From positions 5,469 to 34,738 of the IMG/VR virus record IMGVR_UViG_3300030109_000514: 29,270 nt of DNA; one strand, written 5' to 3'. Below, one piece after another: positions 3,304 to 25,367 of this stretch. A model generated the notes under the pieces. It did no database searches. It worked only from the letters and a program-made list of their open reading frames with translations, and was not told the origin of the DNA. Position numbers and translations under genes: made by a program. Source of the DNA: a virus. Positions within the stretch are counted from its first letter, which is position 1. Each line of letters opens with the position of its first letter.

Positions 3304-3305
3304 AA

Positions 3306-5298: not shown

Positions 5299-5736
5299 TT
5301 AAGATAAACCTTTTGCGGCTAATTTTTGATTAGTTTGGTAGGTATTATAATTAACACCTGCCTGTAATAACGTAGAACCCATTTTATATGTTTCACTAGC
5401 TATCATACCAGTAAGTTCTGCATTCATGGCCGCATTCTTAACAAACACTCCTTTCTCTAAAAAAAACAAATCATTTTCAAATTCTTCTAAATCAGATTTA
5501 GCTGTAAGTAATGGTGATCCTGTAAATTGTATACCACTAGCACCTACTCTTGCTCTTTTTTCACTAAATAATTTTGCTTGTTTTTTAAACAGTTTTTGTT
5601 TGTCGTATTCAAGCTGTAATGTATTTTCGTATCTTTTCCATGCGGCGTTGGCCTTCATGTTTTTTATATTCTGTCTATGCCCCATAATAGTCATAGCAGT
5701 TGAAGCCGCCATCATTGCTGGTACAAACCACGCCAT
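5299..5736 (-). CDS. Internal virion protein, T7 gp14-like
   Basis: A 145-residue protein with a small hydrophobic N-terminus (MAWFVPAMMAASTAMTIMG), then a charged helical centre, then ARVGASGIQFTGSP followed by a helical, Ala-rich C-terminus. The R-x-G-A-S-G-[IV] ... G-S-P-L pattern after a helical N-terminal half is typical of the short internal virion proteins (gp14-type) that podophages encode just after tail tubular protein B. T7 gp14 is ejected into the outer membrane early in infection; the same role is inferred. It starts 14 bases after tail tubular protein B, with AAGGA upstream of the ATG. Length is somewhat short relative to T7 gp14. Confidence 0.75.
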   Translation of the reverse strand: MAWFVPAMMAASTAMTIMGHRQNIKNMKANAAWKRYENTLQLEYDKQKLFKKQAKLFSEKRARVGASGIQFTGSPLLTAKSDLEEFENDLFFLEKGVFVKNAAMNAELTGMIASETYKMGSTLLQAGVNYNTYQTNQKLAAKGLS

Positions 5737-13939: not shown

Positions 13940-15358
13940 CTATTTAAAAATGTTAAACTCACTATCAGAACGTATCTGTAAAGGTTCAGTATTTTTTATT
14001 CTAGCTTTTCTTAATGACATTACACAATATCTCATAGCAGATATTACGTCATCATTAGCAGGAACAATCTTACCATCTTTTCTATGATACATACGTAGTT
14101 CTTCCAACAGTTTACCTTGATTTCTAAATATTTTCAATCTCTTTGTCTGCATACGGGTTAGTATTTCCATAACACCAGCTTCTACGCTGTTACCACCACT
14201 ACCTTCTTTTTGGCCTTGACTTGGTGGATTACTAAAATGTTCTCTAGTCATATTAACACCTTCTTGTCTGTATTGTTCTGTAAGATTTTTACCAGAACCT
14301 TTATCTGCTTGTCTACCATCCATAGGCCATATTACAGGTATCCATTTACCTCTAGATTTTATTGCTGATGCGTGTACTGGTACAGTTTCTTGACGTAACG
14401 AATAACTATCATAAATATAAACAATATCACTATCTCTATCCCATGCTGTCCATACTGATGCTGTAGGGTGATCCCACCCAAAATCTAAACCACATAATCT
14501 AGGCCAATGTATTGGTATATCTATAGGATCACAAATTATATCATCTTCGTTTATAGGAAACACTAAACCAGATCCTAATTGTGGTATACCTTTTTCACGC
14601 ATTTTTCTTTCATGTGGTGGTAACGCTTGTAATATTTGATCTCTAACTTCTTTTGTCATATGGGGTGCATCATCCCAAGTTGCTGTAAACAATGCTTGTC
14701 CATCTTTTAATTTATTTACAAATTGTGCTACTGTTTCTGTCATACCGCTTTCTGGTGTAAACGTCATATATACAATACCACCTTTGTCTGCTGTTCTTGT
14801 CAATGCTTGTGAATATATACTTGGTGGTGGTTCTTCATCTAACCATATAACATCTATACTTTCACCCATCCATTTTTCTTTACCCATCTCATATGCCTTA
14901 AATCCTATTCTAGAATTACCACCAGAAGCGTGTTTTACTACAACACTATTTAATGCATTAGGTACACCTGCTTTTCTTACAGTATCTACTATTAAATTTA
15001 ATGGTATTGTACCTGTACCTTTTGCTGACGGATCGTCTGGTTGGCCGACAAGTTCTTTTTGGCAGACATCCCTAGTCGTTTCATTAGAAACTCCCCCAGC
15101 CCAAGCACGTATTGGTCTAGTAAATCTTCTGCCTTCCCACCACGTTGGGTATTTTCCCGACACATGGTACGCCATTTCCATAGCCCCACAAAATGACTTG
15201 CCGACACGGTTTCCAGCCATCAACAATCGTTGTGATGATTTATTATTATGAAACTTTTTTTGATATACATAAGGTTCATAATCAACCATTCTATTAGTTG
15301 CCTTACGGCGTTCTAATTCTTTAGCTATCTCTACTGCTCTTTGCAAGACTTCGTTCAT
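13940..15358 (-). CDS. terL: Terminase large subunit
   Basis: 472 residues with both motor and nuclease halves. ATPase: Walker A LLMAGNRVGKS (Lys54, Ser55), Walker B VIWLDEE with Asp174/Glu175, and a coupling motif TFTPESG at 200-205. Nuclease (RNase H fold): GLDFGWDHPTAS with Asp292, PVIWPMDGRQ with Asp346, and NDDVISAMRYC with Asp436/Asp437. The enzyme translocates DNA into the procapsid through the portal and cuts the concatemer. Its start overlaps the upstream nuclease gene by 38 bases; the ribosome-binding site is weak, so coupling is likely. The small subunit is not adjacent: 950 bases including a non-coding stretch separate them. Very secure. Confidence 0.97.
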   Translation of the reverse strand: MNEVLQRAVEIAKELERRKATNRMVDYEPYVYQKKFHNNKSSQRLLMAGNRVGKSFCGAMEMAYHVSGKYPTWWEGRRFTRPIRAWAGGVSNETTRDVCQKELVGQPDDPSAKGTGTIPLNLIVDTVRKAGVPNALNSVVVKHASGGNSRIGFKAYEMGKEKWMGESIDVIWLDEEPPPSIYSQALTRTADKGGIVYMTFTPESGMTETVAQFVNKLKDGQALFTATWDDAPHMTKEVRDQILQALPPHERKMREKGIPQLGSGLVFPINEDDIICDPIDIPIHWPRLCGLDFGWDHPTASVWTAWDRDSDIVYIYDSYSLRQETVPVHASAIKSRGKWIPVIWPMDGRQADKGSGKNLTEQYRQEGVNMTREHFSNPPSQGQKEGSGGNSVEAGVMEILTRMQTKRLKIFRNQGKLLEELRMYHRKDGKIVPANDDVISAMRYCVMSLRKARIKNTEPLQIRSDSEFNIFK

Positions 15359-15647
15359 CTATAATTTTATCCAAATCTTCACTATGTATTACAACCCAGC
15401 TACCTTTTCTATTGCTTTGACAAAGCGTAACCACAGGTATCTTATTTTCTTTTTTAGCCAATTCATTTGTGTCCTCCCATAAATTAATAACACTATGTAC
15501 CTTTCTTAACTTACATTCAATAAATAATCTAGGATGTATTACATCTGCCCTAGTTATTTTACTATTACCACCAGACAATGCATTACGTTCACCATTGAAA
15601 TATTTTGCAACATTTCGTTCTCTTTTTTTCCATGCTTTATCGCCCAT
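15321..15647 (-). CDS. PD-(D/E)XK nuclease (putative Holliday junction resolvase-like)
   Basis: 108 residues. An N-terminal basic helix W-K-K-R-E-R-N-V-A-K-Y-F is followed by GGNSKITRADVIHPRLFIEC then K: Asp35, Glu44 and Lys46 form the D ... E-x-K core, and Glu10 could complete the site. Size and layout match the small phage nucleases often found next to terL in podophages and compared with archaeal-type resolvases. It may trim branched concatemers before packaging or act in recombination; this is inferred from family and context. It overlaps terL by 38 bases and the upstream gene by 11. Confidence 0.75.
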   Translation of the reverse strand: MGDKAWKKRERNVAKYFNGERNALSGGNSKITRADVIHPRLFIECKLRKVHSVINLWEDTNELAKKENKIPVVTLCQSNRKGSWVVIHSEDLDKIIDERSLAKSSRDS

Positions 15648-15861: not shown

Positions 15862-15901
15862 AATAACAACAATAGCACGTATTCGCTAAATGTTCTACCT
15901 G

Positions 15902-15915
15902 TTAACATAAGTTAA
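15902..15915. promoter_or_regulatory. Operator-like site 1, TTAACATAAGTTAA
   Basis: Matches the perfect palindrome TTAACTTAAGTTAA (site 2) at 13 of 14 positions. It lies 40 bases upstream of the ATG at 15861, ahead of the packaging/virion transcription unit. I could not find a convincing sigma-70 promoter next to it. Confidence 0.5.
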
Positions 15916-15977
15916 TATGTAAAATTACCCACCGCTACACGGATTAATCCATTGTATAGTATACTCCGAAGCGTTTT

Positions 15978-15991
15978 GGGGGGTAGCCCCC
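15978..15991. repeat. G-run/C-run hairpin in the terS-terL gap
   Basis: GGGGGGTAGCCCCC forms a five-pair G:C stem with a very short loop. Runs this GC-rich are exceptional in this AT-rich genome. It could be a transcript-end structure below terS (minus strand, followed by AAAACG, no U-tract) or part of a packaging recognition or cleavage site. Only the structure is seen. Confidence 0.5.
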
Positions 15992-16311
15992 TCTAGCAAC
16001 ACGCACATTACCCGCATTCTTTTTATTTATGCCGTGTCGTAGCTGTCGTATCTATGTTTTTGTAGGAGTGTTAGAGCTTTGTAGTAAGAGAACAAGACCA
16101 CAACACAGCCACAGGCCTTGGTCTGGAGGCGTGTGAGTGTGTGTCTATAACCATTCTCTACGCAGATGTTGGCCATGTGTCAAGTGTCTATACACCTATC
16201 CGTGTAGATGTTCCGTCTATTGCTGTCCTAGTGTTGTAGTATCTATATACGCCTCTATGTACGTATCTTACTTGATATGTGTCTGTATGATGATCTATGT
16301 AAGAATAAGGG

Positions 16312-16737
16312 CTAGTTTAGAGAACCATTACCCCCGCCGTCATCTGACTTAATAACGTGGATTGTAGATAGCAGGTGGTTTAACTCTTGACGCAATTCTT
16401 CGTCTGTTTTCTTACCTGTTACGTCCTCAACCTTATGCGTTGTTTGATACCCTGTACGATCTAGCAATGAGTTGATTGCACCTAGTTTTACACTTGGGCT
16501 AATCTTATCGCCGTCTATGAGTTGTTTGAGTTTGTCTACGGCCATTGGTACGGCTGATCCTAGTAGCTTACGTGTTTCAGTATCTATCTCATTGAATAGC
16601 TTGTTTTTAAGTTCGTAGCCCTGTTGTTCGGCTGTCTTTTCTGAATACCCCGCCTTGATTGCGCTTTGAGTTGCGTTACCTGTTTGACTAAAGTACTCAA
16701 TAAAGCGTTTTTGTTGATCTGTAAGCATTCTGGACAT
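16312..16737 (-). CDS. terS: Terminase small subunit
   Basis: 141 residues. The N-terminal helix-turn-helix N-A-T-Q-S-A-I-K-A-G-Y-S-E-K-T-A (about 21-36), preceded by LTDQQKRFIEYF, is the standard Terminase_2-type DNA-binding domain; a helical oligomerisation region and a Gly/Ser-rich tail follow. It recognises the packaging site and loads TerL. The gene is visibly richer in G+C than terL (28 and 25 G/C in two sampled 60-base lines) and is separated from terL by a non-coding gap, both unusual. It is divergent from the small-gene operon at 16823, with facing promoters between them. Confidence 0.9.
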   Translation of the reverse strand: MSRMLTDQQKRFIEYFSQTGNATQSAIKAGYSEKTAEQQGYELKNKLFNEIDTETRKLLGSAVPMAVDKLKQLIDGDKISPSVKLGAINSLLDRTGYQTTHKVEDVTGKKTDEELRQELNHLLSTIHVIKSDDGGGNGSLN

Positions 16738-16746
16738 AATGAGAAC

Positions 16747-16775
16747 ATTCTAACCTAAAGCAGTTGACAAGTAAA
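16747..16775 (-). promoter_or_regulatory. Probable sigma-70-type promoter for terS
   Basis: Minus strand: -35 TTTACT (16775-16770), 17-bp spacer, -10 TAGAAT (16752-16747), matching consensus at 4 and 5 of 6. Transcription would begin near 16740, giving an almost leaderless terS message, so the true start may be slightly different. It overlaps the facing plus-strand promoter. Confidence 0.45.
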
Positions 16776-16791
16776 TATATTTATGTATTAA
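16764..16791 (+). promoter_or_regulatory. Probable sigma-70-type promoter for the small-gene operon
   Basis: Plus strand: perfect -35 TTGACA (16764-16769), 16-bp spacer, -10 TATTAA (16786-16791, 4 of 6). It lies 31 bases before the first ATG of the operon. The perfect 14-bp palindrome at 16788-16801 covers the -10 and the expected transcription start, so a bound repressor would block it. Confidence 0.65.
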
Positions 16792-16801
16792 CTTAAGTTA
16801 A
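16788..16801. promoter_or_regulatory. Operator-like site 2, perfect palindrome TTAACTTAAGTTAA
   Basis: A perfect 14-bp palindrome over the -10 and start region of the 16764-16791 promoter. It is the best copy of a motif repeated at four other positions in the window, all upstream of transcription units. Confidence 0.65.
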
Positions 16802-16822
16802 CTCTATGAAAGGGGGTTTGTT

Positions 16823-17011
16823 ATGAAATTTGAATATATCATAACTCAAACAAATAATGACAAAGTTATAGAAGCTATGTCATTCAAAAAACTTTGTAAG
16901 CGTTTAGCTACAGAATATCCTAATGAATTATGTTCTGTAATGTACGTAAACAAAAAAGGGAACAAATGCCGTAAAGACGTTTTTAACGGCAAGGTGGTTC
17001 GTTATGGATAA
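16823..17011 (+). CDS. Small protein of unknown function, first gene of the small-gene operon
   Basis: 62 residues, starting MKFEYIITQTNNDKVIEAMS, basic in its second half (NKKGNKCRKDVF). It has no membrane segment and I recognise no family. A strong ribosome-binding site (AAAGGGGGT) precedes the ATG. It is the first gene after the consensus promoter with an operator over its start, in a run of nine tiny overlapping genes. That position, early and host-promoter-driven, is where phages commonly keep host-takeover or anti-defence genes; this is inference. Confidence 0.7.
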   Translation: MKFEYIITQTNNDKVIEAMSFKKLCKRLATEYPNELCSVMYVNKKGNKCRKDVFNGKVVRYG

Positions 17012-17156
17012 AACTATAATGAAACTAGAAACTATTTTAGATTATCTTTGTAAAATGACGGGTAGAGATATAGCTATATTCTATCCTACAAAGCAATCTG
17101 AAATCGTGCCTTATCTTAAAAAAGAGATCAAGACTACTTTGGAGTTGGTTAAATGA
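17004..17156 (+). CDS. Small protein of unknown function (50 aa)
   Basis: An open frame of 50 codons starting MDKTIMKLETILDYLCKMTG and ending LKKEIKTTLELVK. It has AAGGTGG about 8 bases before the ATG, overlaps the preceding gene by 8 bases and shares an ATGA stop/start with the next gene. Predicted mostly helical. The ribosome-binding site and the overlaps on both sides support it as a real gene; no family recognised. Confidence 0.6.
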   Translation: MDKTIMKLETILDYLCKMTGRDIAIFYPTKQSEIVPYLKKEIKTTLELVK

Positions 17157-17323
17157 TTAAGATGAGGATTAAAGGTAAATTGTACACAGGCCAATCTGTG
17201 TACGATTGCCTATGTCAAGCAGTACGTCAACCTATTAACATTCATGCTAAAATGGTTGATGTTCATAAACTAATCTCAAAAAAACCTATAACTAAAAAGG
17301 AGGATAAAAATGGGATATACTAA
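17153..17323 (+). CDS. Small protein of unknown function (56 aa)
   Basis: 56 codons from MIKMRIKGKLYTGQSVYDCL to KKEDKNGIY. The ATG overlaps the previous stop (ATGA), so it is probably translationally coupled; a second in-frame ATG lies at 17162. Basic and lacking a membrane segment. Its 3' end contains the AAGGAGG ribosome-binding site of the next gene and overlaps it by 14 bases. The N-terminal K-G-K-L-Y-T-G pattern suggests a small beta hairpin; no family recognised. Confidence 0.55.
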   Translation: MIKMRIKGKLYTGQSVYDCLCQAVRQPINIHAKMVDVHKLISKKPITKKEDKNGIY

Positions 17324-17696
17324 CTATTGGAAACAACCTACGGACTTTACTAACGAGCAATGGAGTAAGGTTAAAATGGAGGCCGACTATGTACGTAGTT
17401 GGTCTGAACTTCCACAAATTAAGAAAGTTTGTGAAGTTGAAATACACAAGGATGAAATAATTATTTATGGCCCTTGTGAGAGTATGCATATTAATCGCTA
17501 TGCTAAAACTAAACCAGACTACGAGGGGCAGGATATTACATTTAATTTTTGTAAAACCCGTGAGCAAGTCTATGATCTTGCCGTGTGGCATATGCTTGTC
17601 GCTTGTGCTTTTGTAAAAGATGATTTTACTATTTCACGTGATAATCATAATTTTACCGAGGTTGTTCAAGAACCTAAAGAGGCCGTTAATGGGTAG
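17310..17696 (+). CDS. Conserved-type phage protein of unknown function (MGYTNYW-type)
   Basis: 128 residues, the largest in this operon, preceded by a strong AAGGAGGATAAAA site. It begins MGYTNYWKQPTDFTNEQWSK, a start that I recall from hypothetical proteins in several marine phages and large viruses; it then shows a beta-rich centre with YGPCESMHI and FNFCKTREQVYDLAVWHML (helix). There is no catalytic motif I can name. It follows three very small genes and overlaps the next membrane protein gene by 8 bases. Real gene with high confidence; function unknown. Confidence 0.75.
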   Translation: MGYTNYWKQPTDFTNEQWSKVKMEADYVRSWSELPQIKKVCEVEIHKDEIIIYGPCESMHINRYAKTKPDYEGQDITFNFCKTREQVYDLAVWHMLVACAFVKDDFTISRDNHNFTEVVQEPKEAVNG

Positions 17697-17838
17697 CGGT
17701 AGAAAACTACTAATCTGTGGGGGCATTGCCCTCACAGGTCTAGGTTTTTATTTATCATTCATAAATTTTAGGAATTTGGCATTCTTATTCTGTTCTATGG
17801 GTGTAATTTTATTATTAAGCAGTTTGCCAAAAGTATAG
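17689..17838 (+). CDS. Small two-pass membrane protein
   Basis: 49 residues from the ATG at 17689, which has AGAGG about 8 bases upstream and overlaps the previous stop; an upstream in-frame ATG would lie deep inside the previous gene. Two hydrophobic segments, about 7-25 (LLICGGIALTGLGFYLSFI) and 30-46 (LAFLFCSMGVILLLSSL), separated by N-F-R-N, predict a hairpin in the inner membrane with a short basic N-terminus. Holin-like in shape, but it sits in the putative early operon, far from the lysozyme, so a membrane or superinfection role is equally likely. Confidence 0.6.
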   Translation: MGSGRKLLICGGIALTGLGFYLSFINFRNLAFLFCSMGVILLLSSLPKV

Positions 17839-17846
17839 GAGGATAT

Positions 17847-18089
17847 ATGAAATGGGCAAAAAGTTCAAAGAAACTTAAAAAATACAAGATTGTGCTAATT
17901 AAGGATTATGTTGATGTTATCAATATAGCATTAGACGGCAAAGCTGATTGGCACTTTTCACAAAATAAGATTGTTAAAAATAAATTAGGCAAGGATGTAA
18001 ATATAGATCATGTTCTTGGTGATTTTTGTTTAATGATTAAACATTGTATCAATACACAATACAAAAAGCAAAGGAGGGTTAAACAATGA
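17847..18089 (+). CDS. Small basic protein of unknown function (80 aa)
   Basis: 80 residues, starting MKWAKSSKKLKKYKIVLIKD and ending YKKQRRVKQ, strongly basic at both ends with a central D-W-H-F-S-Q-N-K segment. A perfect AGGAGGATAT ribosome-binding site precedes the ATG, 8 bases after the previous stop. No known motif; nucleic-acid binding is possible from charge only. It overlaps the next gene by 4 bases. Confidence 0.65.
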   Translation: MKWAKSSKKLKKYKIVLIKDYVDVINIALDGKADWHFSQNKIVKNKLGKDVNIDHVLGDFCLMIKHCINTQYKKQRRVKQ

Positions 18090-18265
18090 CAAAAAGAAAA
18101 ATAGTAGATTGGGCTATAGTTGTTAATTATGATAAAGATAATTGTTGGGGTGTTGTTAACACAGATGATTTTGAAATTATTGCAGATATGCCAGATAGTG
18201 TTAGTGGCCCAATAGATGATTATTTAACTGAAACAAGGGAGGATAGCAATGACACAAAGAGATGA
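18086..18265 (+). CDS. Small acidic protein of unknown function (59 aa)
   Basis: 59 codons from MTKRKIVDWAIVVNYDKDNC to TREDSNDTKR, acidic, with W-A-I-V-V-N-Y and W-G-V-V-N strand-like segments. AGGAGGG precedes the ATG. It overlaps the previous stop by 4 bases (ATGA) and the following gene by 17. Small acidic proteins in early phage operons are often inhibitors of host factors or DNA mimics; that is speculation here. No family recognised. Confidence 0.6.
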   Translation: MTKRKIVDWAIVVNYDKDNCWGVVNTDDFEIIADMPDSVSGPIDDYLTETREDSNDTKR

Positions 18266-18485
18266 CGGCCACGATTATAGAGATAGTAAGAATAAAGCAG
18301 AAGCGCATAAAAAAAAGAAGTTTAGCGTTTCTATTGCAGGTCTTAATAATCAAATAAATAGGTTAAATGAACTAGATCCTACAAACGATACTGCTATCTA
18401 TACAAAACAACAACTATCAACTATAATAGATGACTTAACAGACATACTTATAGATCTGAAAATAGAAACAGGAGTAGATGTATGA
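18249..18485 (+). CDS. Small charged helical protein (78 aa)
   Basis: 78 residues: a charged N-terminus MTQRDDGHDYRDSKNKAEAH with a KKKK run, then a helical half rich in Leu, Ile, Asn and Asp (INRLNELDPT and LSTIIDDLTDILIDLKIE) that could form a coiled coil. AGGGAGGATA precedes the ATG. It overlaps both neighbours (17 and 4 bases). No known domain; role unknown. Confidence 0.6.
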   Translation: MTQRDDGHDYRDSKNKAEAHKKKKFSVSIAGLNNQINRLNELDPTNDTAIYTKQQLSTIIDDLTDILIDLKIETGVDV

Positions 18486-18619
18486 TTATAAATTTATTTG
18501 GTAAAACTCTTTTTATTACTAAAAAATGGAAAGAGGATTTAAAAACTAAATCACTTTATTATAGAACTGAAATTGTTTGTTTTGTTGTTGGTTTTGTGAT
18601 AGGTGCAATCGTTTTATAA
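18482..18619 (+). CDS. Small single-pass membrane protein (45 aa), last gene of the operon
   Basis: 45 codons starting MIINLFGKTLFITKKWKEDL and ending with a hydrophobic segment E-I-V-C-F-V-V-G-F-V-I-G-A-I-V-L (about 30-45), a C-terminal membrane anchor. Its ATG overlaps the previous stop (ATGA) and the terminator hairpin starts immediately after its TAA. Real by context; function unknown. Confidence 0.55.
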   Translation: MIINLFGKTLFITKKWKEDLKTKSLYYRTEIVCFVVGFVIGAIVL

Positions 18620-18620
18620 T

Positions 18621-18676
18621 GTTAAGGGAGGAAGCGAACAAAATCGTATTCCTCCCTCAACTTCTTGTATTTTTTT
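18621..18676 (+). terminator. Rho-independent-type terminator of the small-gene operon
   Basis: An 8-bp stem GGGAGGAA (18626-18633) / TTCCTCCC (18649-18656), extended by further outer pairs with one mismatch (18621-18625 with 18657-18661), followed by TTCTTGTATTTTTTT. It starts directly after the last stop codon at 18619. It lies between convergent operons; the T-run serves only the plus strand. Confidence 0.75.
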
Positions 18677-18691
18677 AATAACTTTTGATAT

Positions 18692-18703
18692 TTAAGTTTC
18701 CAT
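18692..18703 (-). other. Strong ribosome-binding site followed by a 3-codon frame
   Basis: Minus strand: AGGAGG (18717-18712) lies 8 bases before ATG GAA ACT TAA (18703-18692). The site is ideal but the frame encodes only Met-Glu-Thr. A neighbouring frame reads ISWKLKYQKLLKKIQEVEGG and runs to about 18617, but has no normal start codon. Either a decaying gene, a non-ATG start, or a chance site. Confidence 0.35.
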
Positions 18704-18727
18704 GATATACGCCTCCTTTTGTTAATT

Positions 18728-18874
18728 CTATTTTCCTTGGCCACGATACTTCTTATAACTCCTACGTTTATTTTTGTTCATTTTTGCTTTACTTGCATTT
18801 CTACCTATAGACGTTTTATGATGTATAGGTTCGTGTTCTACCTTTGAATATAATCCTTTACTCTTTTTGGCCAT
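18728..18874 (-). CDS. Small basic phage protein ending K-Y-R-G-Q-G-K
   Basis: 48 residues, starting MAKKSKGLYSKVEHEPIHHK and ending RRSYKKYRGQGK, nearly one third Lys/Arg. The T-S-I-G-R-N-x-S-K ... M-N-K-x-K-R-R-x-Y-K-K-Y-R-G-Q-G-[KR] layout is one I associate with short basic proteins in other marine phages; function unknown, probably nucleic-acid binding. AAGGA lies just before the ATG. It overlaps the end of the preceding gene by 17 bases and is the last gene of the minus-strand replication unit. Confidence 0.7.
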   Translation of the reverse strand: MAKKSKGLYSKVEHEPIHHKTSIGRNASKAKMNKNKRRSYKKYRGQGK

Positions 18875-19145
18875 CTTCCTTTTTTAATAGTTTACTAATA
18901 GCATCCAATAAGAATGTAATCTGTTTATTACCTATAGATCTAACAACTACAAACAACTCACGTTCTCTATCTGTCATTTTATCTACAAGTCTATGATCTT
19001 TATACTCACTAAACCCGCTATTCTGCATTTCTTCATCAAACTTGCTTATCCACTCCATAGGCACATTTAACATTGTATCTAACTTTTCTTTCTCATAAGT
19101 ATTTTTTGGAAATAACTTATCAAACTTTTTGTAATCTATTGACAT
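18858..19145 (-). CDS. Protein of unknown function (95 aa)
   Basis: 95 residues from the ATG at 19145, chosen because GGGAGGGG stands directly before it and it overlaps the HNH gene end by only 10 bases; an upstream start would overlap by 75. The protein begins MSIDYKKFDKLFPKN, has helices around MEWISKFDEEM and a C-terminal helix ITFLLDAISKLLKKEDG. R-E-L-F-V-V-V-R-S-I-G-N-K-Q may be an amphipathic helix. No known domain; it sits in the replication/recombination unit. Confidence 0.65.
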   Translation of the reverse strand: MSIDYKKFDKLFPKNTYEKEKLDTMLNVPMEWISKFDEEMQNSGFSEYKDHRLVDKMTDRERELFVVVRSIGNKQITFLLDAISKLLKKEDGQKE

Positions 19146-19423
19146 ACCCCTCCCTTGCAACAACTGACTAACTCTTTGTTTAACTTTAATAATTCTTTCT
19201 GTGTTCCCCATTTTTCTGTAAATGCTTTTGGACTAAAATGATAGCTTTCCTTTCCTTGTCTATGATGTATAGGACAAAGCCCAATCACTTCATAATGACT
19301 AGATCTCTTGCCCATACCTGTCTTATCTTTGATATGGTGTAGTTCACATGGAGTATTAGGATAGCCCATTTTATAACATATGATACAACCAAAGTCTGCA
19401 ATCTTTTGCATATGTTCTTTCAT
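19136..19423 (-). CDS. HNH endonuclease, Ref-like (RecA-dependent nuclease family)
   Basis: 95 residues from ATG 19423 (a TTG at 19453 would add 10). The layout fits the small phage HNH proteins related to P1 Ref: G-C-I-I-C near the N-terminus, C-E-L-H-H-I-K-D-K-T-G-M-G-K-R-S-S-H, then I-G-L-C-P-I-H-H-R-Q-G-K-E-S-Y-H and F-x-x-K-W-G-T-Q. The two HH pairs and paired Cys would bind zinc and the catalytic metal. P1 Ref cuts DNA at RecA filaments; a role in recombination or strand processing is inferred. Four bases separate it from the previous stop. Start choice is uncertain since the nearest AGGAGG fits the TTG start poorly. Confidence 0.8.
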   Translation of the reverse strand: MKEHMQKIADFGCIICYKMGYPNTPCELHHIKDKTGMGKRSSHYEVIGLCPIHHRQGKESYHFSPKAFTEKWGTQKELLKLNKELVSCCKGGVCQ

Positions 19424-19427
19424 GTGT

Positions 19428-19736
19428 TTAGTCTTTGTACGTGTCAAATTCAAAATCCTCCTTTGTAAATTCTATAGATCCAACTTTTTTTATCTTTACT
19501 ATGTTTTTGTTATATATAATCATTTCTTCACCTATCTCATCTTCTGATATAGACATAAAAAAATTATGACAATGCTTATCTTTTGATAATAAATAACCCT
19601 CGGTAAATGCTATTGCAGGTCTATCTTTCTTTGCTTCACTCATAGACTTCCATTGATTGTGTGATATGTGATCTATCCACCATACTTGGTACTTGTCAAA
19701 CTTGTTAATAATTTCTAGTTTATTTTTTGTTGCCAT
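19428..19736 (-). CDS. Conserved-type phage protein of unknown function (102 aa)
   Basis: 102 residues: MATKNKLEIINKFDKYQVWW then I-D-H-I-S-H-N-Q-W, later A-F-T-E-G-Y-L-L-S-K-D-K and an acidic C-terminus ending FEFDTYKD. The V-W-W-x-D-x-x-S ... T-E-G-[YW]-L arrangement recalls small phage proteins of unknown function placed near helicase and nuclease genes. Beta-rich, soluble. It overlaps the previous gene by 17 bases. No catalytic motif identified. Confidence 0.65.
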   Translation of the reverse strand: MATKNKLEIINKFDKYQVWWIDHISHNQWKSMSEAKKDRPAIAFTEGYLLSKDKHCHNFFMSISEDEIGEEMIIYNKNIVKIKKVGSIEFTKEDFEFDTYKD

Positions 19737-20079
19737 AGTTTTTATATTCCGCCATCTGATTTATAGTCTTGGTTTTCCAACTATCAAAATTAATCTGTAC
19801 TAAATATTTTTCCCAATTTAATTCTGCTTCTTTACCTACTGCGTCTGCAAGATTATCAATATGTATTTTATATCTCTCATCTGCTCTTGCTTCTCGTTCT
19901 TGGGCATTAACGCTATCCATCTTACCTGTATTAGAATTTATCATTTTCTCTTTCATTATTACAGACAATAATATTTTACGGCCATGCTCTAGTTTTGTTA
20001 GATTTTTCTTTGCGTTTGCATGGTTCTTACCTAACTCTCTTAACTGATGCATTTTCTTTTCAATATATTCTTCACTCAT
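19720..20079 (-). CDS. Helical protein of unknown function (119 aa)
   Basis: 119 residues, almost entirely predicted helix and strongly charged: MSEEYIEKKMHQLRELGKNH at the N-terminus, Q-E-R-E-A-R-A-D-E-R-Y in the middle and E-A-E-L-N-W-E-K-Y-L near 85-95. Similar helical proteins are often next to phage helicase/nuclease genes, but I cannot assign a function. It overlaps the helicase gene end by 8 bases and the next gene start by 17, so it is part of the same message. Confidence 0.65.
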   Translation of the reverse strand: MSEEYIEKKMHQLRELGKNHANAKKNLTKLEHGRKILLSVIMKEKMINSNTGKMDSVNAQEREARADERYKIHIDNLADAVGKEAELNWEKYLVQINFDSWKTKTINQMAEYKNYGNKK

Positions 20080-21568
20080 AACTAAACTCCCTTATGTTTT
20101 TAGATTTTGCTCTACGTATATTTAGATGTTGTATGTATCCCATAACATCTTTACCTGTAGCTACAGGAATTACTTTTTTAGAATGAGGCCAATGACCATA
20201 CTTTTCTTTAAATGTATATGAAGCCCATCCTTCTTTGTATCCTTTTTGTTTTGCAAAATAGACAAGTTGTGCATAAAAGTTTTCTTTATCTTCTGCATTT
20301 GGTTTCATCTTTGGCAGTTCTACTAATCTACCTTGTTTGATAAGTATAACTTCTTCTTTCTTTGTAGGTATATGGCCACAATTAGGACATTCTGGATTAT
20401 CTTTTATAGGTTTATAAACCGTATCACATTCAACACACGTAAAAGGTTGTTGATCTATAGGTTTAGGTTCTTTCTTTTTCTTTTCTTTTTCTTTGCTAGT
20501 TTTTAGTTGCCAATCTGGTACATCTTCTGGAAACCCATGTTCATACACACACCCGCTATGATCTATAATCAATGTATCTTTTTTATTAGGCGCAGGTCTT
20601 AAACTTCTACCTACCATTTGTAAGTACAATGAATATGATTTAGTAGGCCTAGCTATAATTACACAAGACACTTTGGGTTGATCCCAGCCCTCCGTCAAGA
20701 CCATACAATTAGATAATACTTTTATCTTACCACTATTTAATTTTTCTAATTGTTCTTCACGTTCTATTTCTGGCATTTCACCATCTATATGGCCACTTGG
20801 TACACCATTTTGTTTAAATATATTTGCAATGTATTTACTATGTTTTATTGATACACCAAAAACAACGGTTGGCCTTTGTTCGCCATGTTGTATCCAATGA
20901 GATACAATATCACCTACTAATTTAGGTGTATTCATTTTGTTATCTAATGTTTTCTTTTCATAATCACCTGCAACAATACGTATATCTTGTAAGTCTGGTA
21001 TTGTAGGTGCAACTATTCTATTAGGTACAAGAAAACCTTTGTTAGTTAGATCTTTGATATTACCACCTTGTACAAGTTCTTGATATATGTTGCCTAAACC
21101 TTTGCCATCAGCTCTACAAGGTGTTGCAGTAAGGCCAATAACATATGCGTCTGGATATTCTTCTATTAATTTTTTAAATGACTTTGACGTAGATCTATGC
21201 GCTTCATCTATAATTATAACATTTGCATTTGGTTTTATAAAATCATCTCTATCTTTACGTGATGTAAATGTTTGTATTGACGCTATCTGTACATCTGCAT
21301 AATGATTAGGTGTTTTACTTGCCATAATTACGCCATGTTTAATATCAAAGTCTGCTAACTTACGGCTACATTGCATCACCAATTCCCTTCTATGTGCAAC
21401 GAACAAACCGAAGTTTCCCTTTTCTACAATCTGTTCTAACATTGATGATGCAATTACCGTTTTACCGCTACCCGTAGGGGCAACAAGTAAAACTTTCTTT
21501 TTGCCTTTTGCAAAATGATTTCTAATATTATTAATTGCTTGTTTTTGATATTCTCGTAGTAGGTTCAT
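20072..21568 (-). CDS. DEAH-box superfamily 2 helicase with zinc ribbon
   Basis: 498 residues from ATG 21568, which begins the family-like MNLLREYQKQAINNIRNHF and has GGAAAAGA upstream; an earlier in-frame start would add 38 non-family residues. Motifs in order: Q-motif-like R-x-Y-Q, Walker A APTGSGKT (30-37), Walker B DEAH (121-124), TATP (147-150), motif V-like L-T-E-G-W-D (291-296) and VI QMVGRSLRP (318-326). A zinc ribbon follows with Cys378, Cys381, Cys394, Cys397. This resembles phage helicases of the T5 D10 / RecQ-UvsW-like SF2 group used in replication and recombination. It overlaps the primase gene by 38 bases, indicating a primase-helicase unit. Confidence 0.92.
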   Translation of the reverse strand: MNLLREYQKQAINNIRNHFAKGKKKVLLVAPTGSGKTVIASSMLEQIVEKGNFGLFVAHRRELVMQCSRKLADFDIKHGVIMASKTPNHYADVQIASIQTFTSRKDRDDFIKPNANVIIIDEAHRSTSKSFKKLIEEYPDAYVIGLTATPCRADGKGLGNIYQELVQGGNIKDLTNKGFLVPNRIVAPTIPDLQDIRIVAGDYEKKTLDNKMNTPKLVGDIVSHWIQHGEQRPTVVFGVSIKHSKYIANIFKQNGVPSGHIDGEMPEIEREEQLEKLNSGKIKVLSNCMVLTEGWDQPKVSCVIIARPTKSYSLYLQMVGRSLRPAPNKKDTLIIDHSGCVYEHGFPEDVPDWQLKTSKEKEKKKKEPKPIDQQPFTCVECDTVYKPIKDNPECPNCGHIPTKKEEVILIKQGRLVELPKMKPNAEDKENFYAQLVYFAKQKGYKEGWASYTFKEKYGHWPHSKKVIPVATGKDVMGYIQHLNIRRAKSKNIREFSYE

Positions 21569-22373
21569 ATCTTTTCCATATATCGTTAAGTTGAAATAAT
21601 ACTTCTTTTTCATCATCTGGTGGTTTACAATGATTATTAAATTGTAATGCTTCTGTCTTTGCATAATCATATGTTTCGCCACGTAATCTTATTGATATTA
21701 ACATCTTTACTAATTGTTCGTGTCTATCACCCTCGCCACATCCATAACGTAATGTGCCTGTATATTGGCCTTGATAAATAGATGGATCATGCTTTACTAC
21801 TTTACGTTCTGGCCTTACTAATCTCAATCCATCTCTTATTTCTTTCATAGTGTATGGTTCATGTGCAGTACATTGTATAATTTTTACAGGATAAGGATTT
21901 TTTTTATGATGATAAAAACCTGCAACACGCATTACACGTGGAAGATCTTTTACTTTAGGATCTGAATTAAATCTTGTTGCAAGTGCTTCTTGGTATAATT
22001 CAAAACTTTCTAATGGCATATCTTTTACAATCCAATAACAATGAAACTTATTACGACTTGTATTAACAACTATGTTAGGTATGACATCAAACTTTGTAGG
22101 TAATGGAGTACCATCAAGATCAATAAATACTGCTCTTACATCTTTTATATTTTTTGTAGATCTACCGCAAAGATCTGTTTTGTTTACAGTAAAATATACA
22201 CCTGCGCCTTTGCTATTTAATTCAGCAAGTTCATCAAAGTGTTCTTCAATAGTACCATGTAATTGTTTTATTAATTTTTTGTTTCTAATTTTGTCATCAA
22301 ATGTTTGGAATGTATGTGTTTGACCAAAGTAATCTAGAAACATACTATAATGTGAATTAGGAGTATATGTCAT
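21531..22373 (-). CDS. RepB-type primase (archaeo-eukaryotic primase superfamily)
   Basis: 280 residues from ATG 22373, which shares an ATGA with the stop of the previous gene (a GTG two codons earlier is also possible). Motifs: A-V-F-I-D-L-D-G with Asp85/Asp87 (metal site), T-S-R-N-K-F-H-C-Y-W with Lys109/His111, and L-P-R-V-M-R-V-A-G-F-Y-H (144-155). This is the pattern of RepB-like primases. A C-terminal helical part (about 210-270) may be a PriCT-like domain. It would lay primers for replication by a polymerase not found in this window. Next to the helicase, it fits a plasmid-like replication module. Confidence 0.88.
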   Translation of the reverse strand: MTYTPNSHYSMFLDYFGQTHTFQTFDDKIRNKKLIKQLHGTIEEHFDELAELNSKGAGVYFTVNKTDLCGRSTKNIKDVRAVFIDLDGTPLPTKFDVIPNIVVNTSRNKFHCYWIVKDMPLESFELYQEALATRFNSDPKVKDLPRVMRVAGFYHHKKNPYPVKIIQCTAHEPYTMKEIRDGLRLVRPERKVVKHDPSIYQGQYTGTLRYGCGEGDRHEQLVKMLISIRLRGETYDYAKTEALQFNNHCKPPDDEKEVLFQLNDIWKRYEPTTRISKTSN

Positions 22374-22591
22374 TCGCACCTATGCCCTATAACTAATTTG
22401 TTACCATCATTTGTATAGTAAGCAGAATGTTCCCATACACCTTCTTCGTACCAATGAAATGTAGACATATCCTCTATAATTTTATGTGCATGGTCTGAAC
22501 ACCACTCATACTTTGTATAATCATACTCGTAATATAATCTTTCTAGTTCACAAGTATTACAAGCTAATATAAATATAATTATCTTAACCAT
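22370..22591 (-). CDS. Small protein with hydrophobic N-terminus, unknown function
   Basis: 73 residues: MVKIIIFILACNTCELERLY, then an aromatic, acidic stretch (Y-E-Y-D-Y-T-K-Y-E-W-C-S-D) and a His/Glu/Trp-rich end. The N-terminal MVKIIIFILAC is a short hydrophobic segment, too short for a typical signal peptide but possibly a membrane or lipoprotein-like signal; Cys11, Cys14 and Cys31 are notable. It is wedged between DUF1376 and primase genes with 8- and 4-base overlaps. No family recognised. Confidence 0.55.
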   Translation of the reverse strand: MVKIIIFILACNTCELERLYYEYDYTKYEWCSDHAHKIIEDMSTFHWYEEGVWEHSAYYTNDGNKLVIGHRCE

Positions 22592-22979
22592 CTTCGCCTA
22601 ATGTTTCATCACTCCATCTTTTTTTTGCGCCTAACTTACCTGCAATAGATCTTTTCTTTCTATTCTTTTCTTGTTCCTTACGTTCTTCTTCTGCCTGTAT
22701 ACATACAAGAAATATATTACCTTCTTTGTCTTTCTTTTCTTCAAATAGATGTGATATTTTTTTCCAAATTTTTTCTAACTTATCAACTCTACAATTAGAC
22801 ATTCTAGATAACACTTCCATATCTTTTGGAATACGAAAACTACGCCAACAATGACAATACAATAAAATATATGCGCCTTGTTCTTCTAATGATAACTTCA
22901 TTCTGTTTGGATCTGATATCCAATCACTTGCATAAAATTGAAAAGCAGGGCTTTGTTCGTCTGTTGTAGATTTTCTCAT
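22584..22979 (-). CDS. DUF1376/YdaU-family replication-associated protein
   Basis: 131 residues. The core F-Q-F-Y-A-S-D-W-I-S-D (13-23) and L-S-L-E-E-Q-G-A-Y-I-L-L-Y-C-H-C-W (29-45) matches the DUF1376 (YdaU) family, and the C-terminal R-S-I-A-G-K-L-G-A-K-K-R-W is the usual basic tail. Members sit in phage and prophage replication regions upstream of primase/helicase or helicase-loader genes and are thought to help replication initiation; the mechanism is not known. It is the first gene after the 326-base non-coding region, with promoter and an operator-like site just upstream. Confidence 0.85.
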   Translation of the reverse strand: MRKSTTDEQSPAFQFYASDWISDPNRMKLSLEEQGAYILLYCHCWRSFRIPKDMEVLSRMSNCRVDKLEKIWKKISHLFEEKKDKEGNIFLVCIQAEEERKEQEKNRKKRSIAGKLGAKKRWSDETLGEDG

Positions 22980-22991
22980 TTATTACACATA

Positions 22992-23005
22992 TTAAGTTAG
23001 GTTAA
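22992..23005. promoter_or_regulatory. Operator-like site 3, TTAAGTTAGGTTAA
   Basis: Reads TTAACCTAACTTAA on the minus strand; 12 of 14 positions match the perfect palindrome. It ends 13 bases before the DUF1376 start and covers the expected transcription start of the 23011-23039 promoter. Confidence 0.5.
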
Positions 23006-23010
23006 TATCA

Positions 23011-23039
23011 GTTTTACATTAAGAGAAACTACGTGTCAA
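23011..23039 (-). promoter_or_regulatory. Probable sigma-70-type promoter for the DUF1376-primase-helicase unit
   Basis: Minus strand: perfect -35 TTGACA (23039-23034) inside ACACTTGACAC, 17-bp spacer, -10 TAAAAC (23016-23011; 4 of 6). The start would fall near 23004, inside operator-like site 3. The 11-bp word around the -35 recurs in the 15862-16311 gap. Confidence 0.55.
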
Positions 23040-23106
23040 GTGTGTCTACTATCTTGTATGTAGTTGTAGGTGTAGTTGAAGGTGAAGATGAAGATGAAGG
23101 GGATAC

Positions 23107-23123
23107 TTTTGCTATTAGCAAAA
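23107..23123. repeat. 17-bp perfect inverted repeat
   Basis: TTTTGCTATTAGCAAAA: two 8-base arms around one central T. Such a compact dyad is protein-binding-like rather than a transcript hairpin, because the loop is only one base. It lies in the non-coding region beside the tandem repeat and is unlike the 14-bp operator motif. Confidence 0.6.
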
Positions 23124-23134
23124 CGATACGATTT

Positions 23135-23156
23135 TATAGCAATGCTATAGCAATGC
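23135..23156. repeat. Tandem 11-bp direct repeat, TATAGCAATGC twice
   Basis: Two exact adjacent copies of TATAGCAATGC (23135-23145 and 23146-23156), one helical turn apart, followed by CATTG. The spacing places bound proteins on the same DNA face. Only two copies, so an iteron array is suggestive rather than shown. Confidence 0.6.
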
Positions 23157-23186
23157 CATTGTTTATAACCATTCTAAAGAAGGGAG

Positions 23187-23235
23187 GTGGTGCGGAAACC
23201 TAAACTAAAATGAAAGAGGGAAAAAACCGCACCAC
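23187..23235. repeat. GC-rich 9-bp dyad with 31-base spacer
   Basis: GTGGTGCGG (23187-23195) and CCGCACCAC (23227-23235) are exact inverted copies. On the minus strand the first arm is followed by TTTTTT within the loop; no U-tract follows the second arm. It may be a transcript structure between the Cro-like gene and the replication genes, or part of an origin. Confidence 0.55.
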
Positions 23236-23305
23236 GATATAGCTTACACTCTCGCTTACACTATATACACGGTATACTTTTAACCTATTTTATAATGGTC
23301 TACGC

Positions 23306-23518
23306 CTACCGTTTAGGCGCAATCTCTAAATCTGGTCTTATATAACTTATATCATAATCACCTAATTGTGCAATCTGATATGCACGAAAAGGTGGTATTA
23401 CTTGCCATTTAGATACGGCAGGATGTGAGATCCCCAGCATACGTGATAAATTTTTACCACCATATTTACCTACAATCTCTTTCTTACGTTCTTTTGCTAA
23501 TCCTACCTTTTCTATCAT
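23306..23518 (-). CDS. Cro/YdaS-like helix-turn-helix regulator
   Basis: 70 residues. The HTH reads Y-G-G-K-N-L-S-R-M-L-G-I-S-H-P-A-V-S-K-W (about 19-38), followed by I-P-P-F-R-A-Y-Q-I-A and a C-terminal Y-I-R-P-D-L. The A-V-S-K-W recognition helix with a R-P-D-L ending is typical of the Cro/YdaS-type DNA-binding proteins in lambdoid and other prophages. Its ATG shares an ATGA with the previous stop. The gene is divergent from the SSB operon, and two 14-bp operator-like sites lie in the intervening promoter region, so it is the first candidate for their repressor. Binding is inferred. A hairpin, CGCCTA/TAGGCG, overlaps its stop codon. Confidence 0.82.
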   Translation of the reverse strand: MIEKVGLAKERKKEIVGKYGGKNLSRMLGISHPAVSKWQVIPPFRAYQIAQLGDYDISYIRPDLEIAPKR

Positions 23519-23742
23519 GTTTCACCCTGTTGTATTTTTGCAACAGTAGTGTGTCTTAATTGCAACAGGTATTTAGACCTATCCTCACACTTTATTGCTT
23601 CATCTGTAAGCACTAATATATCATCTGCTTTGTTATAATGTTGAGGGATAACACTAGATCTGTCAAGATTAATAATTTCTTTATCAATCCTTTTTTGTTT
23701 AGCTTGTAATTCCTCTATAAGTTCATCTAATACACTTGCCAT
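23515..23742 (-). CDS. Coiled-coil-like small protein upstream of the Cro-like gene
   Basis: 75 residues from ATG 23742; a TTG at 23778 would add 12 residues but has no ribosome-binding site. The N-terminal half MASVLDELIEELQAKQKRID is predicted coiled coil, followed by a helical region and QLRHTTVAKIQQGET. Acidic/basic alternation fits oligomerisation. No family recognised. It is the first gene of the minus-strand control unit, directly before and coupled to the Cro-like gene, so it may act with that regulator; speculation. Confidence 0.6.
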   Translation of the reverse strand: MASVLDELIEELQAKQKRIDKEIINLDRSSVIPQHYNKADDILVLTDEAIKCEDRSKYLLQLRHTTVAKIQQGET

Positions 23743-23787
23743 AATTTGTTCTATATTTGTTTTGTTAACAAAAGTCAATCTATATAC

Positions 23788-23816
23788 TTGACTTACGTTA
23801 ATATATCATTTAACTT
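23788..23816 (+). promoter_or_regulatory. Possible promoter of the SSB-exonuclease operon
   Basis: Plus strand: -35 TTGACT (23788-23793, 5 of 6), 17-bp spacer, -10 TAACTT (23811-23816, 3 of 6). The -35 lies in operator-like site 5 and the -10 in site 4. The weak -10 lowers confidence, but the position before the first gene is right. Confidence 0.4.
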
Positions 23817-23823
23817 AACTTAA
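23788..23823. promoter_or_regulatory. Tandem operator-like sites 4 and 5, 22 bp apart
   Basis: Site 5 TTGACTTACGTTAA (23788-23801) and site 4 TTAACTTAACTTAA (23810-23823) match the 14-bp palindrome at 12 and 13 of 14. Their starts are 22 bp apart, two helical turns, as for cooperative repressor pairs. They overlap both divergent promoters. Confidence 0.55.
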
Positions 23824-23856: not shown

Positions 23857-24462
23857 ATGACAAGCATAATAGCAAATGGTGGCAATGATACACCAAGTTA
23901 TCCAACGGTATCTGTTGGTGTACATAAGGCCAGATGTGTAAGAGTAATAGATCTCGGTACACAGCAAAACGATTATCAAGGGCAGATTAGTTGGAAAAGA
24001 CAGGTAATGTTGATATGGGAAGTACCATCTGAAACAGATAATAAAGGTGAACCATTAACAATCAGTAAGTTCTATACGTTATCATTAAATGAAAAAGCAA
24101 ATCTTGCTAATGATTTAGTATCATGGCGTGGTAGACCTTTTACTGAAACAGAAAAGAAAGCGTTTGATATATCAAAGGTAGCAGGTAAACCGTGTAGTAT
24201 AAATGTTATACTAAATCAAAACGGTAAACCAAAAGTATCAACCGTTATGCCAATAGGTAAGAATGATGAGATTGCACAACAGTTTCATCCTAACATGGTG
24301 TTTAGTATTACAGACTTTCAAGAAAAAAAGATGGAAGTATTTAATCAATTACCCGAAGGCATAAGAAACATTATCTTAAAATCTAAAGAGTTAGAAGGTA
24401 CGGAAAAACAAGATTTAGGTGATGAAAATAATGCACAAGATCTTGGTGATATTCCGTTCTAA
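23857..24462 (+). CDS. Phage SSB-like single-stranded DNA-binding protein
   Basis: 201 residues with an OB-fold-like layout: K-A-R-C-V-R-V-I-D-L-G-T-Q (24-36), M-L-I-W-E-V (51-56), L-V-S-W-R-G-R-P-F-T (87-96) and V-A-G-K-P-C-S-I-N-V (108-117). The W-x-G-R-x-[FL]-T ... F-D-[IL]-x-x-[VL]-x-G-K-P-C pattern is shared by phage ssDNA-binding proteins found beside exonucleases. The end is an acidic tail ...LGDIPF, which closely resembles the C-terminal tip by which bacterial SSB recruits partners. It is coupled to the exonuclease gene by a TAATG overlap. First gene of the plus-strand operon, behind the operator pair. Confidence 0.85.
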   Translation: MTSIIANGGNDTPSYPTVSVGVHKARCVRVIDLGTQQNDYQGQISWKRQVMLIWEVPSETDNKGEPLTISKFYTLSLNEKANLANDLVSWRGRPFTETEKKAFDISKVAGKPCSINVILNQNGKPKVSTVMPIGKNDEIAQQFHPNMVFSITDFQEKKMEVFNQLPEGIRNIILKSKELEGTEKQDLGDENNAQDLGDIPF

Positions 24463-25367
24463 TGAAAATAACAAATAGATCAAATCTACCAAAAGTTATT
24501 GAACGGGCTGTAATAAATGATCCCTATGATAGTAGTGGATCTAATATATCTACAACCCGTTTGATTGCACCACCTAGAATAAGAGTACTAGAAATGCGTA
24601 ACTGGGATCTTATTGAAGATGATGTATCAAATAGAATATTCTCTTTACTTGGTCAATCCGTACACCATATATTAGAGAGATCTAAACTAAAGGTAGATCT
24701 AGCTGAACGTAGATTATTTTACAAAGATGATAAGATAACTAATGGATGGACATTGAGTGGTCAGTTTGATTTGTTATCTAGACAAGGTGATCTAACAGAT
24801 TTTAAAGTTACATCTGCATGGGCCGCACTTGATGCATTGACTAATGGTAAAGACGAATGGGAAAACCAACTTAATGTATTAGATTTTCTATGTAGAAAAA
24901 ATCAAAAGACATTGACAAGGTATAAGAAAGAAGTCAAAGTTAAATCATTAAACATAATGGCTATACTGCGTGATTGGTCAAAACTAAAAGTAATGCAATC
25001 AGACAACTATCCAAGAAAACAAGTTGTTATGATACCTATACGTAGATGGTCAGAAGAAGAACAAGAAAACTATGTACAGGCACGTATTAAATTACATCAA
25101 GATGCAGAAAAAACAGATGATCTTCCATTGTGTACAGCAAAAGAAAGATGGCGAAAAGAAGATAGCTATGCTCTTATGTTAGACAATAGAAAAACTGCAA
25201 GACGTGTACTACCTACAAGACAAGACATGGATAAATATATGAAAGATAATAAATATGTTGAAGGCCAAGGATGTAAGGTAGTATTTCGTGCAGGTGAAGA
25301 TGTTAGATGTCAGCATTATTGTAGTGTTAATCAGTTCTGTAGTCATTTTATGAATGTGAGTTTCTAA
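24462..25367 (+). CDS. PD-(D/E)XK exonuclease, Cas4/RecB-like, with probable Fe-S cysteines
   Basis: 301 residues. Nuclease motifs: L-G-Q-S-V-H-H-I-L-E (63-72), G-Q-F-D-L-L with Asp103, L-T-D-F-K-V-T-S with Asp113/Lys115, and W-E-N-Q-L-N-V-L (133-140), the motif III-like Gln region. A conserved-type Cys set, Cys224 and then Cys283, Cys287, Cys293 in R-C-x-x-Y-C-x-x-x-x-x-F-C, would bind an iron-sulphur cluster as in Cas4/AddB nucleases. It probably resects DNA ends together with the adjacent SSB-like protein in a recombination step. Strong nuclease call; cluster and partner are inferred. Confidence 0.85.
   Translation: MKITNRSNLPKVIERAVINDPYDSSGSNISTTRLIAPPRIRVLEMRNWDLIEDDVSNRIFSLLGQSVHHILERSKLKVDLAERRLFYKDDKITNGWTLSGQFDLLSRQGDLTDFKVTSAWAALDALTNGKDEWENQLNVLDFLCRKNQKTLTRYKKEVKVKSLNIMAILRDWSKLKVMQSDNYPRKQVVMIPIRRWSEEEQENYVQARIKLHQDAEKTDDLPLCTAKERWRKEDSYALMLDNRKTARRVLPTRQDMDKYMKDNKYVEGQGCKVVFRAGEDVRCQHYCSVNQFCSHFMNVSF

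Follow-up and report, generated by a model that had tools for sequence, protein, structure and literature searches.

A P22-type Cro protein and its probable operators at the starts of five transcription units in a marine podovirus

A family of 14-bp palindromic operators stands at the starts of five transcription units in a marine podovirus, represented by the IMG/VR record IMGVR_UViG_3300030109_000514 (34,738 bases), of which positions 5,469-34,738 were analyzed here as one stretch of 29,270 nucleotides, hereafter the window. The family agrees with an original prediction made from the letters of the window and is conserved in relatives, and its members are probably the operators of a single phage-encoded protein, a P22-type Cro, which would repress the early units in a timing and homeostasis circuit of the lytic cycle.

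The five 14-mer sites of that prediction were recovered at the coordinates and with the mismatches given for them (none at 16788, one each at 15902 and 23810, two each at 22992 and 23788), and no further match to the palindrome at up to two mismatches exists in the whole record. At this threshold, the five matches in the window compare with a shuffle mean of 1.14, and 1 of 200 shuffles reaches five. All five are non-coding, as had been claimed, since they fall within the corrected mask of non-coding DNA used for the intergenic site tests (1,616 bases, 5.5% of the window), where the shuffle mean is 0.058 and none of 2,000 shuffles reaches five. At three mismatches the total of eight is not above the shuffle mean of 9.67. 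When the motif is reduced to TTAACNNNNGTTAA with at most one mismatch in its 10 positions, eight copies are present against a mean of 3.66, an excess that is weak window-wide (10 of 200 shuffles match it), and six of the eight lie in the non-coding share (0 of 2,000 shuffles; binomial P 7e-7). The other two are coding copies, one within the 3306 gene and one within that of the major capsid protein. A sixth site, at 23765-23778, had been absent from the prediction; it has three mismatches to the palindrome and differs from the true motif at one position. The gaps to the start codons are of 12-55 bases, near the 13 to about 70 bases previously given.

The true motif was defined by the relatives. 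When pentamer dyads with spacers of 0-12 were counted over 14 representative genomes, 4,073 classes were observed, and the constant core TTAAC-N4-GTTAA has the highest intergenic count of them all, with 22 copies in 13 of the 14 genomes, followed by a class with nine that is nested inside it. The N4 spacing is strict, with zero intergenic copies at a spacer of 3 or 5, and the 22 exact copies compare with a mean of 0.10 and a maximum of 1 in 59 permuted half-site controls, while the 62 one-mismatch intergenic copies compare with a mean of 2.2 and a maximum of 10 in 29 such controls. Within a set of 46 records, which was also used for the profile screens for Cro and lysogeny genes (13 are at least 34 kb long and 33 are shorter, possibly fragments), the exact motif is present in 40 and the reversed pattern in 2. 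The preservation of the operator by chance is unlikely, because nucleotide identity of the record to 16 of 19 other compared genomes is just 73-79% over 15-59% of its length. The dyad recurs at the orthologous gene starts of the relatives (cro/SSB, replication, terS/small genes, terL), and it is practically certain that the operators are real.

The richest arrangement is found between cro and the divergent SSB-like gene, where all 38 clusters have at least one site, 36 have two, and 15 have three or more. The type of site named O3 in Table 1, TTGACN4GTTAA, in which the TTGAC of the -35 box doubles as a half-site, occurs in 34 of these clusters, and the O2 type, TTAACN4GTCAA, in 15. A tripartite operator between divergent promoters, as in the lambdoid switches, is present in the window and in 15 of the 38 clusters, with a spacing of 21-24 bp (22 bp for O1-O2 and 23 bp for O2-O3 in the window). 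Within the window, several sites at a spacing like that of lambda or P22 occur only in this region. Three clades (L067, L070, and L072) have approximately 100 extra bases between the start of the SSB-like gene and the first operator.

The ligand named by the original prediction was the helix-turn-helix (HTH) product of 23306-23518, an assignment which is supported as likely, given that this protein matches Pfam P22_Cro (PF14549) at 5e-10, with 39.4 bits over a cut-off of 30.2, that each of the 46 records has exactly one P22_Cro match above the cut-off, and that the P22 operators are similar. The nearest solved sequence is also that of P22 Cro (E 9.5e-7), and the predicted structure has five helices, with a pLDDT of 87.7. 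In the recognition helix, S31, H32, A34, S36, K37, and W38 are invariant in 15 aligned Cros and P33 is almost so, with the half-site likewise conserved. It is thus highly probable that Cro is the protein which binds these operators.

The closest known system is Salmonella phage P22, which shares the Cro protein family, a 14-bp dyad with an N4 spacer, and the presence of several operators next to cro. In the annotated OR and OL operator regions of P22 the dyad is TTAAG-N4-CTTAA, with an exact copy at one site in each region and distances of 25 and 23 bp between the OR sites, whereas the half-site here is TTAAC, i.e., one base is changed per half. The present phage also differs in that no C2 repressor gene was found, in that the gene divergent from cro is SSB-like, and in that sites also precede the replication, small-gene, and terL units.

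Pelagibacter phage EXVC032P Baldr, isolated on HTCC1062, has the sole relative of this Cro in the annotated phage collection, and its record (OQ414636, L005) carries locus tags EXVC031PHodr, the name of another phage. No relative of this Cro is annotated near the SSB-like homologues in the five of eight non-Baldr matches viewed, one of which instead adjoins a different protein of 67 amino acids, annotated as a putative antitoxin. In 27 contigs with terL, which are mostly fragments, Cro was found in 5 and the exact site in 21.

A number of observations weigh against the assignment of all these sites to one Cro. Foldseek gave no match at E 0.001, with P22 Cro ranked top at E 0.18, and the fold Z-scores are moderate (7.8 for the best, Xfaso 1 Cro, and 7.0 for P22 Cro), with unrelated rows reaching 7.3. 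Covariation of the recognition helix and the half-site is unsupported, as a search for Cro clades in which the recognition helix differs returned only the contig of the query itself. In the 14 relatives, 12 of the 34 exact copies of the motif fall within predicted open reading frames (ORFs), which were assigned by a simple gene caller that leaves true and false ORFs unsorted. Clusters with no site make up 7 of 22 at the replication start, 4 of 21 at terS/small genes, and 12 of 47 at terL, and Baldr has no site within 100 bp of its DUF1376 gene. Finally, HTVC010P, a phage with no Cro, has one exact non-coding site (28302), at a gene end approximately 100 bp before the next start.

That phage is one of four others of HTCC1062 (HTVC010P, HTVC008M, HTVC011P, and HTVC019P), none of which has a P22_Cro match, and which together have five exact sites, of which four are coding. 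These phages speak against the idea that the sites are read by a host regulator such as CtrA, which controls other alphaproteobacterial phages and has boxes of the form TTAA-N7-TTAA. In none of these Cro-less phages is a series of sites seen at gene starts. The sites do contain TTAA repeats, and TTAA pairs in non-coding DNA are documented for CtrA in alphaproteobacterial phages (PMC9437464), but the spacer is N7 there and N6 here, and binding by CtrA is very improbable. CtrA was rejected as a ligand on the counts of the two spacings, with TTAA-N7-TTAA at background level, in four intergenic copies in four genomes, and the N6 form enriched, in 35 copies in 13 of 14. The motif with one mismatch is frequent in unrelated pelagiphages (9, 24, 4, and 6 copies against 1, 12, 3, and 3 of the reversed control), and therefore only exact or well-placed sites count as evidence.

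The P22-type Cro, as the preferred ligand, would act in a phage with no detected lysogeny genes. Tyrosine integrase (PF00589), serine recombinase (PF00239), S24 repressor, and above-cut-off HTH_3 matches were each found in 0 of the 46 records, many of which may be fragments, with four sub-threshold HTH_3 matches, three of which are the Cro gene itself. In lambda OR, divergent promoters enclose three operators spaced by about two helical turns, and the resemblance of the three operators 21-24 bp apart between divergent genes might suggest a hidden temperate switch, in which a diverged CI-like repressor and integration genes have gone unrecognised and the operators serve immunity. This is a quite improbable reading, given the results of the screens, the nature of the gene divergent from cro, which is SSB-like and not a repressor, and the failure to confirm any relative of this Cro in bacterial genomes, where 36 stretches matched the search pattern for a prophage trace and none was confirmed. 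The sites here also lie outside the control region, and no CI or integrase was found, which sets the phage apart from lambda. Given that neither a CI-like repressor nor an integrase was found, the proposed circuit is one of timing and homeostasis and not a lysogeny switch. The lambdoid-like global switch of the original prediction is supported in part, as a probable Cro-operator regulon but not in the sense of lysogeny, and the system is best described, from its predicted parts, as resembling the Cro half of the lambdoid switch without the CI half. Mycobacteriophage stoperators, by contrast, serve the immunity of temperate phages. There, one repressor is reported to have sites spread over the genome (PMC6550527), whereas here the sites are few and mostly at gene starts.

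The perfect TTGACA claimed at two loci is present, at 16764-16769 (+) and 23039-23034 (-). As for the sigma-70-like promoters that were said to accompany the sites, they are conserved in relatives, but a consensus scan of the window yielded no excess (41 against 40.6 in shuffles), and the promoter claim therefore rests on conservation in relatives. At the replication unit, all 20 anchored clusters have TTGAC 28 or 33-36 bp ahead of the operator, which implies that the operator covers the predicted start point, and at the small genes it stands 21-31 bp upstream of the operator in 18 of 30. Judged by these predicted promoters, the operator positions at cro, SSB, replication, and small-gene units are repressor positions, and early repression by Cro is a likely outcome. 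The terS gene has a strongly conserved promoter-like motif of its own, CTTTAGGTTATAATG, at 16738-16775, whose distance to the operator varies.

The terL site belongs to the same operator set and lies just upstream of a weak predicted promoter. Averaged over 32 relatives, matches to the -35 and -10 boxes are best at the offsets of this late promoter, the -10 box by a small margin. This arrangement raises the possibility that Cro, besides repressing the early promoters, directly activates the terL/late promoter from a site near -46.5, so that the early-to-late switch would be held in one protein. No other site lies entirely upstream of its predicted promoter, as the terL site does; the terL promoter is weak, and in many relatives 4 bp separate the operator from a -35-like hexamer. 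On the other hand, lambda CI at PRM is centred about -42, and the position -46.5 is half a turn off it. A second site lies over the -35 box in four relatives (G032, G035, G038, and L274), which suggests repression, and in at least seven terL clusters the site instead overlaps the terS end, with an exact operator in G039, G040, G044, L236, L262, L268, and L283 that adjoins terL in some. Late activation by Cro is doubtful. The p4/p6 switch of Bacillus phage phi29, in which the regulator is reported to repress early and activate late promoters (PMC3100819), is alike only if the late site here activates; its proteins differ, and activation here is hypothetical.

A conserved block at 15916-15990 precedes the terL operator at a fixed distance, with the form CCCCCCAAAACG ... 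ATGGATT..TCCGCACAGCGG.GGG, followed by a T-rich stretch, and is a candidate cos or terminator element. The RNA fold of this block is not stronger than in shuffles (z -0.70). Rfam gave no match. The constant distance of such a block, possibly cos or similar, could indicate that the sites next to terS and terL are packaging elements bound by terminase and unrelated to transcription, yet the same dyad with the same spacing is found at promoters remote from the terminase genes, which makes a packaging role a slim prospect.

In the Cro circuit favoured here, a Cro dimer would read TTAAC-N4-GTTAA, which differs from the P22 operator by one base in each half. The host RNA polymerase would transcribe the early units first, from their TTGAC promoters, and the Cro made early would accumulate and limit its own synthesis through the -35 site. 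Cro would then shut the SSB/exonuclease, replication, and small-gene units by blocking the polymerase, and the late terL unit may be released, limited, or activated by Cro. The dependence on the host enzyme agrees with the earlier claim of a phage with no RNA polymerase of its own, given that a T7-type polymerase (PF00940) was found in 0 of 22 family records and was detected in the positive control, HTVC019P.

Table 1. Operators, predicted promoters, and genes of the proposed Cro circuit (positions in the window).
Feature	Position	Strand	Basis
P22-type Cro, 70 amino acids, proposed ligand of all sites	23306..23518	-	Pfam P22_Cro match
Operator O1, covers weak -10 region of SSB-like promoter	23810..23823	.	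motif match
Operator O2, contains TTGACT, likely -35 box of SSB-like promoter	23788..23801	.	motif match
Operator O3, newly found, TTGACTTTTGTTAA on -	23765..23778	.	its TTGAC forms the cro -35 box
Predicted cro promoter TTGACT, 17 bp, TATAGA	23750..23778	-	sequence and relatives
75-amino-acid gene ahead of cro, same unit, ATG at 23742	23515..23742	-	no family match
SSB-like gene, first in rightward unit	23857..24462	+	phrog_862; homologue annotated putative ssDNA binding protein
Exonuclease, next gene after SSB-like	24462-25367	+	phrog_2139
Operator over predicted start point of replication unit	22992..23005	.	site in 15/22 clusters
Predicted replication promoter TTGACA, 17 bp, TAAAAC	23011..23039	-	sequence and relatives
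DUF1376/primosomal-type gene, first of replication unit with primase and helicase	22584..22979	-	profile matches
Operator, perfect palindrome, between terS and small genes	16788..16801	.	site in 17/21 clusters
Predicted small-gene promoter TTGACA, 16 bp, TATTAA; operator overlaps -10	16764..16791	+	sequence and relatives
Operator before terL unit, centre near -46.5	15902..15915	.	site in 35/47 clusters, 86/104 loci
Predicted weak late promoter TAGAAC, 17 bp, TATTGT, 4 bp from operator	15869..15897	-	sequence and relatives

The listed TTG start (23778) of the 75-amino-acid gene is upstream of the predicted cro promoter, and in several clades no such gene was found separating cro from the control region. 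The -10 boxes predicted for the cro unit (23742) and the terL unit (15861) end 7-8 bases before the start codon, and the mRNAs of both may therefore be leaderless. The second gene of the terL unit, at 15321-15647, resembles RusA-like Holliday junction resolvases (phrog_2002). A giant gene related to a 2,329-amino-acid protein of Baldr (35-37% identity) lies in part at 1-3309 (-) and continues beyond the window; it is interrupted by a stretch of N at positions 5459-5468 of the record, and the + ORFs at 326-703 and 728-1204 are antisense to it.

The protein, the dyad, and the multi-operator region each belong to a known type. For phages with no detected lysogeny genes, no Cro-only regulon spanning five transcription units was found in the open-licence literature searched, in the portions of it that were available, and the same material yielded no transcription circuit for this group of ocean phages, for which a concrete and testable one is now proposed. 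The cultured relative, Baldr, on HTCC1062, makes this circuit accessible to experiment, and the family offers dozens of natural sites for one type of Cro, with a contrast to P22 of one base per half. The Cro-operator module can persist across divergent genomes with no detected lysogeny genes. A bolder and rather unlikely extension is that one Cro of 70 amino acids constitutes the complete transcriptional programme of a widespread group of lytic marine podoviruses that use only the host polymerase, by shutting the cro, SSB/exonuclease, replication, and small-gene promoters and opening the weak late one from the site immediately ahead of its -35 box; if this were true, a single Cro would do the jobs of lambda Cro, CI (as an activator), and Q together.

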